From the NCBI GenBank assembly GCA_015066115.1, contig SVOZ01000001.1, forward strand, positions 62,001 through 126,000: a DNA stretch of 64,000 nt. Reading direction: 5' to 3'. The translations under genes and the position numbers were made by a program. Positions 11,261 through 39,423 of this stretch are shown here, piece by piece; within the stretch, counting starts at the first letter, position 1; each line of letters begins with the position of its first letter. The notes under the pieces are model-generated. The model was not told the DNA's origin and did no database searches. It saw only the letters and a program-made list of their open reading frames with translations. The stretch is from Oscillospiraceae bacterium (lineage in GTDB: Bacteria > Bacillota > Clostridia > Oscillospirales > Ruminococcaceae).

Positions 11261-11351
11261 GGAGAGGTGGCTGAGCTGGCCTAAGGCGCACGATTGGAAA
11301 TCGTGTAACGGTTAACCCCGTTCGAGGGTTCGAATCCCTCTCTCTCCGCCA
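11261..11351 (+). tRNA. tRNA-Ser (anticodon GGA), CCA encoded
   Basis: Acceptor ggagagg/tctctcc, anticodon loop ttGGAaa, long variable arm, T-arm gggTTCGAatccc. Confidence 0.95.
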
Positions 11352-11352
11352 A

Positions 11353-11384
11353 AAAATCCAAGTCTTCGGACTTGGATTTTTTTA
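11353..11384 (+). terminator. tRNA-Ser terminator hairpin
   Basis: aaatccaagtcttcggacttggatttttttat. Confidence 0.8.
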
Positions 11385-11385
11385 T

Positions 11386-11578
11386 CCATTGCGAATGCAA
11401 TGGTATATCATCACGCAGTATGCGTGTATATCATCAAAGGCGGCACACCGCCTTTGTATCTCATCACACCTTTAGGTGTGCATCAAAAAACTTTCGCAAT
11501 GATGATATACAAAACTTCGTTTTGATGATATGCAATTTCTTCGAAATTGATGATATACACGGCTTCACCGTGATTATA
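11386..11578. repeat. Hairpin array A
   Basis: Hairpins at 11386-11403, 11413-11425, 11436-11455, 11466-11479, 11511-11523, 11534-11548, 11559-11571, separated on the left by (G)TATATCATC-type linkers and on the right by GATGATATRC, i.e. the reverse complement. Confidence 0.9.
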
Positions 11579-11625
11579 ATATGTAGGTGTTTGAATAATA
11601 TAATAAAGAAAAGGGCGATGATTGT

Positions 11626-36330: not shown

Positions 36331-36406
36331 GATCCATTAGCTCAGTTGGCAGAGCACTTGACTTTTAATCAAGGTGTCCGGAGTTCGAATCTCCGATGGA
36401 TCACCA
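36331..36406 (+). tRNA. tRNA-Lys (anticodon UUU), CCA encoded
   Basis: gatccat/atggatc acceptor, anticodon stem-loop cttga-cTTTtaa-tcaag, T-arm cggagTTCGAATctccg; 5' end position approximate (+/-2). Confidence 0.95.
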
Positions 36407-36618
36407 AAAAAGCGAGATACCCAAAAGGGTACCTCGCTTTTTTAATTGCATAGCAATGTCGGAGATGAGAACTCCGGAGGAGTTCGTCGCAGCAGCTAAA
36501 AATGCGCGATAGCATTTTTAGACTGTGAAGTCGAGAGCAGGTTAAATGCCACTGGGTTACCGCTCGGAGCGGTCAGTGGCATAACCGCGCAGCGTACCTC
36601 CGATGGATCACCAAAAAA
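36391..36618. repeat. 207-bp insertion flanked by 21-bp direct repeats of the tRNA-Lys 3' end
   Basis: ctccgatggatcaccaaaaaa at 36391-36411 and 36598-36618; internal hairpins at 36445-36457, 36469-36485, 36496-36521, 36547-36581. Confidence 0.85.
36411..36443 (+). terminator. tRNA-Lys terminator hairpin
   Basis: agcgagatacccaaaagggtacctcgctttttt. Confidence 0.75.
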
Positions 36619-37761: not shown

Positions 37762-37780
37762 AATTAATAGGTAGTAAGTA

Positions 37781-37813
37781 AAAAGCCCAAGAACGAAGGT
37801 TCTTGGGCTTTTT
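37781..37813. terminator. Hairpin terminator
   Basis: aaaagcccaagaacgaaggttcttgggcttttt. Confidence 0.75.
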
Positions 37814-37823
37814 GTGCAAAATA

Positions 37824-37841
37824 GCGACTAAAAGTAGTGTA
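37824..37841. repeat. Short repeat GCGACTAAAAGTAGTGTA, copy 1
   Basis: 17 of 18 identical to 38296-38313. Confidence 0.8.
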
Positions 37842-37843
37842 AA

Positions 37844-38044
37844 CTAATCGTCTATAACCGATCCACCTTTTGTTCCGTCGGGATTGCTGTAATATCCGTC
37901 GATGATCTCATTAAATCCACCACCGAAATACCAGCCTTTTGACTCAATCAACTCGATAAAAGCATCGGTAAACTCATCCATTGTCATTTCGGGTGGTATT
38001 TCAATGCAACCATTTATCTCCATTTCTTTTCTCAAGATTATCAC
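37844..38044 (-). CDS. Small hypothetical protein, possibly YggL/DUF469-like
   Basis: MTMDEFTDAFIELIESKGWYFGGGFNEI faintly resembles the DUF469 FIE..E..GL.FGGG pattern; weak. Confidence 0.5.
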   Translation of the reverse strand: MIILRKEMEINGCIEIPPEMTMDEFTDAFIELIESKGWYFGGGFNEIIDGYYSNPDGTKGGSVIDD

Positions 38045-38070
38045 CTCTGTGCATATTATAACATATTGAA

Positions 38071-38240
38071 TGAAATATTGCTACGCAATATGAAATAATC
38101 CTTTGGATTATGAAATATTTTGCCTTAGTGGCAAAATGTGAAATAAAACAAATCCCTCATACACCACAGCGTATTTCATAGCGTCAGCTATTTCATAACG
38201 CAACGCGTTATTTCACAAATCCCGCAAGGGATTTATTTCA
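38071..38240. repeat. Hairpin array B
   Basis: Left linkers TGAAATA at 38071, 38091, 38111, 38139; right linkers TATTTCA at 38172, 38189, 38209, 38234; hairpins 38076-38090, 38097-38109, 38117-38137, 38179-38190, 38196-38210, 38217-38234. Confidence 0.92.
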
Positions 38241-38242
38241 TT

Positions 38243-38286
38243 GAAAAGAAACACCCTTTGTCGGTAGACAAAAGGTGTTTCTTTTC
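38243..38286. repeat. Long terminator-like hairpin with CTTTGTCGGTAGACAAAA apex
   Basis: gaaaagaaacaccctttgtcggtagacaaaaggtgtttcttttc; apex shared with 39306-39347. Confidence 0.85.
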
Positions 38287-38295
38287 TGCGAAAGA

Positions 38296-38313
38296 GCGAC
38301 TAAAAGTAGTATA
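38296..38313. repeat. Short repeat GCGACTAAAAGTAGTATA, copy 2
   Basis: 17 of 18 identical to copy 1; a third divergent copy CGACCAAAAGTATG is at 38327-38340. Confidence 0.8.
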
Positions 38314-38355: not shown

Positions 38356-38736
38356 TCACTGGAAATATCTCTTATATTCCGGCTCCGCTTTTAATTCTTT
38401 AAGCAATTCATCCATATTTTCAAAAATAGATTTACCAACAATCCCTCTGAAAGGTTCCCACATTGCAGGTAGCACATTGTTGTGTGAGCAAATATATTTC
38501 CATTCATCCTCATCGTATTGATAGATCGCTTCCAGTTGATAAGTGAAAAAGTCCTTTTCGTCCTTCAGTACAACATACCTCATCGAACAATCTTTTGAAT
38601 AAATCACTTTTACAATTTCATCGGAAAATGCATCAAGATGTTTGTCGTACATCATTTCAACGACGGTTTCCCAAGAGGGCATTGGCGATATTTCTTCCTT
38701 TGATTTCTTCTTAAACAATTTTGTAAAGAAGTTCAT
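38356..38736 (-). CDS. Hypothetical protein
   Basis: MNFFTKLFKKKSKEE... start overlaps the end of the S23 gene (4 nt), consistent with translational coupling; track start 38796 lies inside that gene. Confidence 0.65.
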   Translation of the reverse strand: MNFFTKLFKKKSKEEISPMPSWETVVEMMYDKHLDAFSDEIVKVIYSKDCSMRYVVLKDEKDFFTYQLEAIYQYDEDEWKYICSHNNVLPAMWEPFRGIVGKSIFENMDELLKELKAEPEYKRYFQ

Positions 38737-39086
38737 TTTACATTCTCCTTTGCGGTTCTGCAAGATGCAATCAAAAGCCTGCGGATATTGCCACAAAGTT
38801 TCTCTGCGTGTTGATATGTTGCATTATCTATCCGTTTGGTTTCAAACATAAGTTTTAGCCAATAGCTTGTTTCGTTGGATTCTTTGAGTGCAATTTCTAA
38901 CTTTGCAACAAAATCTTTCTTGCTTTGTGCATACTGCGCTTCGTGGATGTTGGCGCCGACGGATGTACCGGCTCTTGCAAGCTGATCGGTCATATAAGAA
39001 CTTTTCGATGCAGTTACACCGTCAACAAGATTTACAATAGCAACAGCAAACTCAAAAGATAAGTCAAGTAATTTGTTTTCGGACAT
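38733..39086 (-). CDS. S23/four-helix-bundle protein (rRNA intervening-sequence protein family)
   Basis: MSENKLLDLSFEFAVAIVNL...SSYMTDQLARAGTSVGANIHEAQYAQSKKDFVAKLEIALKESNETSYWLKLM; upstream residues in the ORF track are translated repeat DNA. Confidence 0.9.
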   Translation of the reverse strand: MSENKLLDLSFEFAVAIVNLVDGVTASKSSYMTDQLARAGTSVGANIHEAQYAQSKKDFVAKLEIALKESNETSYWLKLMFETKRIDNATYQHAEKLCGNIRRLLIASCRTAKENVK

Positions 39087-39137
39087 AAATACACCTTCTT
39101 TCATCGGCATTTTATCATAAAATGTTACATTTTTCAA

Positions 39138-39303
39138 TGATATATCGCTGACGCGATATGATATACGGCTATGCCGTATGATATACTTGCTACGCAAGCA
39201 TGATATAATATCCGTTCCTTCATATTCCGCAGGCATATATCATCGCTCGAAGAGCGATATCATATCGAAGATATATCACCCGATCCGACAGGAACGGATA
39301 TCA
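39138..39303. repeat. Hairpin array C
   Basis: Left linkers TGATATA at 39138, 39159, 39179, 39201; right linkers TATATCA/GATATCA at 39236, 39256, 39271, 39297; hairpins 39142-39159, 39163-39179, 39186-39198, 39242-39258, 39262-39274, 39283-39299. Confidence 0.92.
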
Positions 39304-39305
39304 TT

Positions 39306-39347
39306 GAAAAAAGTCACCTTTGTCAGTAGACAAAAGTGACTTTTTTC
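39306..39347. terminator. Long terminator-like hairpin between tRNA-Arg 3' end and array C
   Basis: gaaaaaagtcacctttgtcagtagacaaaagtgacttttttc. Confidence 0.85.
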
Positions 39348-39348
39348 G

Positions 39349-39423
39349 TGGCACCCCTGACTGGAGTCGAACCAGCGCACATGGCGTCGGAGGCCACTGC
39401 TCTATCCACTGAGCTACAGGGGC
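39349..39423 (-). tRNA. tRNA-Arg (anticodon CCG), CCA encoded
   Basis: Reverse complement gcccctgtagctcagtggatagagcagtggcctCCGacgccatgtgcgctggttcgactccagtcaggggtgcca. Confidence 0.94.

Follow-up and report, generated by a model that had tools for sequence, protein, structure and literature searches.

The window, by which we mean the whole 64,000-nucleotide stretch of DNA that was analysed, carries on its minus strand two gene cassettes in direct succession, which are located downstream of a tRNA-Arg gene (39352-39423; cmscan, and aragorn on locus L087). The first of these, cassette C, comprises in this order a terminator hairpin (39306-39347; sequence and repeat search), array C with its TGATATA linkers (39138-39306; cmscan and covariation), a promoter-like element TTGAAA-17-TAAAAT adjoining the last linker of the array (39109-39137; promoter scan), an IVP gene (38736-39089), a second gene (38356-38736) and a tail, TACTACTTTTAGTCGCTCTTTCGCAGAAAAG, which runs into the hairpin of cassette B (38281-38311; repeat search). 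The IVP gene encodes a four-helix bundle of 117 aa that belongs to the 23S rRNA-intervening sequence protein family (PF05635, E 7.5e-25), while the second gene, the start of which overlaps the IVP stop (ATGA), encodes 126 aa without a Pfam family. Cassette B follows directly and consists of a perfect terminator-like hairpin, GAAAAGAAACACC..GGTGTTTCTTTTC, immediately 5' of array B (38243-38286; repeat search), array B itself, a small cargo ORF of about 59-65 aa (37844-38035), a conserved tail, TACTTTTAGTCGCTMTTTYGCA (37814-37841), which is 88% identical to that of cassette C by repeat search, and a terminator hairpin 3' of this tail (37780-37813, given without strand; inverted repeat search). 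The terminator hairpins preceding the two arrays have the core CTTTTGTCTACYGACAAAG in common. The anatomy of a cassette begins with a terminator hairpin and the array, continues with a promoter at the last linker and a small cargo gene, which an IVP gene may or may not precede, and closes with a conserved tail, after which the next cassette starts.

Cassette B carries its cargo ORF without an IVP gene, whereas the adjoining cassette C has one; array B would thus be the IVP-less sibling of its neighbour. As a point against recognition of the arrays by IVP, arrays of this kind are numerous, and no TGAAATA array was seen beside any of the six IVP genes that this genome, at a completeness of 97.75%, contains. 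The cargo ORF matches the YggL-like family PF04320 weakly, at 18.5 bits and thus under the cut-off of 27, and its relatives in genomes G107 and G064 stand without an array in front.

Within array B, the first-pass annotation had placed TGAAATA linkers at 38071, 38091, 38111 and 38139 (plus strand) and TATTTCA linkers at 38172, 38189, 38209 and 38234, with hairpins in between, and all eight heptamers as well as the hairpins were found there. The heptamer TGAAATA occurs 34 times in the whole window as opposed to 18.9 expected occurrences, a count that 0 of 100 shuffles reached. The proposed symmetry held for the four linkers per half but not for the arrangement of three hairpins, a centre and three further hairpins. 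In minus-strand orientation, four TGAAATA linkers and four hairpins, the fourth of which is weak, make up half 1 (38168-38243; cmscan), and half 2 (38064-38145) has inverted TATTTCA linkers and three hairpins. The first hairpin of half 1, AAATCCC ttgc GGGATTT (38217-38234, minus strand), recurs in part at the centre of the array, where GAGGGATTTGTTTTATTTCA (38139-38158, minus strand) contains the first stem sequence for a third time, together with the first linker of half 2. Since this centre can also base-pair with the stretch made up of first linker and first stem arm, TGAAATAAATCCC, to form a closing stem, the first stem arm of array B has two alternative partners, one local and one central. 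Folding of the array, calculated for a stretch that took in the neighbouring terminator hairpin, is strong on both strands when compared with shuffled sequences (z of -9.3 as DNA, -8.7 and -8.9 as RNA). A reading as CRISPR array was rejected, because the segments between the linkers are self-complementary hairpins and the repeats are inverted half-way. One survey lists IVP as CRISPR-linked (PMC10910872), and we would guess that this listing may reflect hairpin arrays of the present type.

That arrays B and C share one design with different linkers, as had been noted from the sequence, was borne out and extends to array A (11383-11580, plus strand; linkers TATATCATCA/TGATGATATA), which was located by a word-cluster scan of the window and is preceded by a tRNA (11261-11348) and subsequently a terminator (11351-11383). 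The same annotation had proposed that structure is conserved over sequence, and the relatives of both arrays agree with it. Across eight relatives of array C, array C included, 97.8% of the stem cells in the four hairpins are paired and 11 of 23 pairs have changed on both sides, which 0 of 500 shuffles equalled. In the family of array B (n=12), for which pair counts are limited to the closing stem and the first hairpin as column-wise alignment breaks in hairpins of differing length, 91.6% of the closing-stem cells are paired and the covariation score amounts to 0.68 versus 0.235 in shuffled data (0/500). The first arm together with its local partner, in a register one column over, attains 96.4% and a score of 0.667, about equal to the closing stem, so both alternative partners are backed by covariation. 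Moreover, half of the inter-linker segments in a wider set (50%, n=342) contain a stem of at least five pairs, as compared with 9% after shuffling, and the 4+4 design recurs widely, four linkers being the commonest count in each half (35 and 38 of 66 arrays). Both hairpin drift without preserved pairing and a lack of further 4+4 arrays were looked for, and neither was found. Linkers are uniform inside an array and differ by IVP clade; as this is also expected from selection by a cognate protein, the templated, duplicative growth suggested at first is not needed. The hairpin apexes of all arrays mostly read CTTCG or CTNCG on the linker strand, and hence CGAAG (a GNA-type loop) on the opposite one, in both halves. 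Counts of G-U versus A-C mismatches were rejected as an uninformative test of RNA against DNA folding, because the excess of T-G pairs at the stem base stems from the linker letters themselves.

The association of arrays with IVP was followed in genes gathered from 120 genomes of the family and 80 loci of named genomes, mostly ruminant-gut Clostridia. An inverted-linker array (score of at least 6) is located upstream of 70 of the 97 IVP genes with enough upstream sequence, mostly from gut Clostridia, in comparison with 6 of 1,067 control windows taken from these loci and with 1 of 97 sequences that were simulated, and most of the IVP genes that scored no array (n=15) have one-sided or plain heptamer repeats, as judged by eye. 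Linker identity is predicted by IVP identity (Mantel r 0.60, 0/2000 permutations). Above 90% identity, every pair of IVPs has its linker in common, while at 40-60% identity 20-28% of the pairs do so. The linkers of the individual clades comprise TGATATA, TGATGNN, TGAAATA, GATGAAATC, TGAATTG, TCGATAT and AGCTAAAT. From this co-variation we infer that an IVP clade probably recognizes its own 7-base linker; as array and IVP may be co-inherited as one 5' module, the co-variation suggests such recognition but does not prove it. The IVP family profile matches the PDB entries 2RLD and 2GSC, which have five chains each.

The genes downstream of IVP are diverse. Judged by sequence appearance, a methyltransferase, an acetyltransferase, a nucleotidyltransferase and a pyrophosphatase-like protein are among their products. 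In about two dozen loci with mutually unrelated cargoes the IVP stop and the cargo start overlap in ATGA; IVP is often translationally coupled to the second gene in this way. The second gene of cassette C is 83% identical to the cargo of locus L148 over the aligned 64 aa, with IVP identity at 47% and different arrays. Similarly, the cargoes of L133 and L083 are 95% identical and their IVPs 52%, while L095 combines an IVP that is 95% identical to that of the window, and an array homologous to array C, with an unrelated cargo. BLASTN homology between such module-swapped loci ends at the IVP stop codon, or else begins close to where the IVP gene ends and continues up to the point at which the following array begins. 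Both 5' modules and cargo modules have been exchanged between cassettes, and some of this exchange could be ordinary homologous recombination between them. In addition, the array of L010 (G000 C6, about 204430-204600) resembles a chimera of TGATGC-type and TGATATA-type halves, and its cargo gene (MIYGVKVIHTHTVGEN..) is of the same kind as one behind a TGAAATA array in L046, which stems from another genus.

Arrays are preferentially found behind tRNA genes: a tRNA gene lies just upstream of 48 of 70 arrays, with 17 isotypes overall, against a background of 0.027 per 300 nt in the remainder of these loci. Behind the orthologous tRNA-Arg, genome G002 differs in its terminator as well as in its array, which has no IVP, and G003 contains four ORF-less units of about 205 bp, which are 90-98% identical, have a common tail and stand each behind a different terminator. 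The tRNA context and these differences in G002 and G003 point to mobility of the cassettes. A clean empty site with target duplication was not found, and the pfkB/LUD locus was rejected as such a site, because gene order there differs in G001 and G002 and yields no precise junction. In the window, the 3' end of a tRNA-Lys, CTCCGATGGATCACCA (36391-36406), is repeated about 200 bp downstream (36598-36613) and followed by a second terminator, and tRNA 3' fragments also precede the hairpin in L098, L106, L112, L120 and L132; these repeats look like attachment-site duplications. The ORF-less arrays L053, L048, L020, L056, L058, L059 and L060 end in a conserved tail, GAGTTCGAATTCAYACGCAAA, which resembles the tRNA T-arm GTTCGAATTC and is often followed by ATATCTTTTTTGTAGCCCATAGACA.

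On balance, we consider it probable that array B heads a modular gene cassette, arranged in tandem and apparently mobile, within a family that is defined by the IVP/S23 four-helix-bundle protein, with the linker as IVP site and the array as both cassette end and operator. According to this model, the IVP of a given clade would recognize the 7-base linker, while the conserved hairpins would space the linkers and let both halves fold on each other. The array would then constitute the cassette end used in swapping 5' and cargo modules behind tRNA genes and terminators, the cassettes being presumably mobile, and may double as operator of the adjoining promoter.

The strongest competitor of this model retains the operator and dispenses with the cassette end. 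A promoter is present 3' of the array in 31 of 47 loci as compared with 9 of 177 controls, its -35 box mostly adjoins the last linker, and in 23 of the 31 promoter-bearing arrays the box starts at a distance of 5-8 bases from where the last linker word begins. Together with linkers that track the IVP clade, this spacing, which agrees with the preferred model as well, would suit an array that is an operator only, at which IVP or a host factor represses the adjoining promoter of an autoregulated operon, the cassettes being passengers of ordinary recombination. In Geobacter, paired sets of five tandem heptamers, located on opposite strands, had been interpreted as 'global regulator binding sites' (PMC2700814). 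Nevertheless, we regard an operator-only function as unlikely, for covarying hairpins are not needed by a double-stranded operator, ORF-less units exist in which the conserved tail replaces the gene, and the plain-heptamer IVP elements of other phyla have inverted copies 3' of the gene as well.

Somewhat less likely still is an action of the array as RNA in the manner of a 23S rRNA intervening sequence, where the halves would form a long double-stranded stem that is cut by RNase III and the host transcript would be insulated. The intervening sequence of Coxiella combines heptameric repeats with terminal inverted repeats and RNase III excision, and its heptamers are located ahead of the S23 gene, their copy number differing from strain to strain (PMC4990558). 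Moreover, an Azospirillum IVP (L196), as read from the flanking sequence, sits within 23S rRNA and is flanked by heptamers, and the strong RNA folding of array B would also agree. Like the intervening sequences with their S23/IVP ORF, cassettes such as C feature this protein family, inverted repeats and heptamers by the ORF, and array B itself has complementary ends and heptameric repeats in the form of its closing stem and inverted 7-nt linkers. In contrast to them, the cassettes stand outside rRNA, in tandem behind tRNA genes, with unrelated cargo and with hairpins separating the heptamers, and array B is intergenic, behind tRNA-Arg, instead of residing in a 23S rRNA gene. The RNase III reading is further opposed by the position of most arrays between terminator and promoter, outside the upstream transcript barring read-through, and by the local hairpins, which compete with the half-to-half stem.

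The arrays have a catalogued counterpart in Gut-1 (RF01706), a candidate noncoding RNA known in its original description from human gut metagenome sequences only (Weinberg 2010, PMC2864571). Against a gathering score of 50, cmscan assigned 63.3 bits to half 1 of array B on the minus strand and 48.1 bits, slightly less than required, to half 2 on the plus strand (38064-38121), while array C constitutes a second pair of Gut-1 halves and exceeds the gathering score with 58.6 bits. Each half of arrays B and C matches with the same linkers and hairpins, but the model covers one half as a lone candidate RNA, devoid of inverted half, closing stem, terminator, IVP, cargo and tRNA context; the inverted pairing of the halves, their neighbours and their IVP partner appear undescribed so far. 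The original idea, that one strand is transcribed, with UGAAAU linkers as contact sites for a protein or RNA partner, is favoured by an Rfam family with covariation and a gathering score that is passed. We deem it improbable, as the halves are inverted copies of one unit, so that the linkers in any one RNA half read as their complement, as both strands match Gut-1, and as the CTTCG/CTNCG apex is commonest relative to the linker strand in both halves. Our literature search, outside of which lay most subscription journals and preprints, found no published link of Gut-1, or of heptamers in general, with IVP except for the heptamers of the Coxiella intervening sequence.

Finally, it is scarcely credible that the array is a miniature DNA element moved in trans by a Y1 (REP-type) transposase or a reverse transcriptase: dispersed palindromic repeats and several Y1_Tnp matches in this genome would fit, but both enzymes were rejected as movers, as Y1_Tnp has no match in the array-rich G003, G074 and G087, and RVT_1 none in six of eight array-bearing genomes tested (this genome, G001, G002, G003, G036 and G087). 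The Y1 transposase that marks REP/BIME systems in repeat-rich genomes is accordingly missing from G003, G074 and G087, and the reverse transcriptase that marks diversity-generating retroelements and group II introns is missing from this genome. Avd of diversity-generating retroelements has the same fold as the IVP-family structures; without a reverse transcriptase in this genome, the system is not such a retroelement.

Returning to the preferred model of an IVP-defined cassette, its protein is not confined to Clostridia. Next to most plasmid-borne IVP genes inspected, which include genes of five other phyla, plain tandem heptamers occur on one side or on both and are usually inverted (Monoglobus, Treponema, Bernardetia, Nostoc, Gloeocapsa, Planktothrix, Chlorohelix and Azospirillum). 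In a test that does not register hairpin arrays, as these have no constant period, a strong tandem repeat lies near 25 of 114 IVP loci and has period 7 in 24 of these 25, while 9 of 1,244 control windows reach that level. Intergenic tandem heptamers have been surveyed before (SPADE survey, PMC6344855; Xanthomonas/Nostoc, PMC4692102; Geobacter, PMC2700814) and share the period of 7, often four units and some inverted pairs with the arrays; in Xanthomonas, most have four units, and inverted pairs are found among them (PMC4692102). IVP is not named in the relevant passages of those papers, whereas here it is the common neighbour and, in these Clostridia, hairpins separate the heptamers. We tentatively propose, as a possibility that falls somewhat short of probable, that IVP/S23 proteins are the sequence-specific partners of bacterial intergenic tandem heptamers and that all of these form a single, hitherto unrecognized class of modular mobile elements, whose ends would each offer about four heptamers to a pentameric IVP. 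The rRNA intervening sequences would then be a special case, and the hairpin variant of gut Clostridia would shuffle cargo behind tRNA genes.

Array B is a real and well-conserved structure, the halves of which are catalogued as an orphan RNA, and it leads to a modular element not described before and to a protein that may be the partner of bacterial heptamers. The co-variation of IVP and heptamer ties together heptamer repeats, the orphan RNA Gut-1, the IVP/S23 family, which is annotated without function, and the rRNA intervening sequences, whose origin is unsettled; four linked puzzles thus become testable through one protein of 117 residues. The presence of IVP beside 7-base repeats in many phyla provides a first lead on the purpose of widespread unexplained repeats. 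If the cassettes do move, gut Clostridia would own a gene-shuffling system behind their tRNA genes that is invisible in annotation.

Further loci show additional configurations. In the hybrid arrays of L171, L086 and L094, one half consists of plain TATTCAT-type heptamers and the other of heptamers with a single central hairpin, an apparent intermediate between the plain-heptamer and hairpin types. L197 (MT835815.1), which was obtained from human faeces and is labelled bacteriophage though it may be bacterial sequence, carries a Gut-1-like array followed by IVP. In the plasmid loci L187, L192 and L194, IVP genes reside inside restriction-modification or defence-like operons, namely between hsdS and hsdR, between genes for DUF1156 and Swt1, and flanked by a helicase gene and an N-6 DNA methylase gene, respectively.
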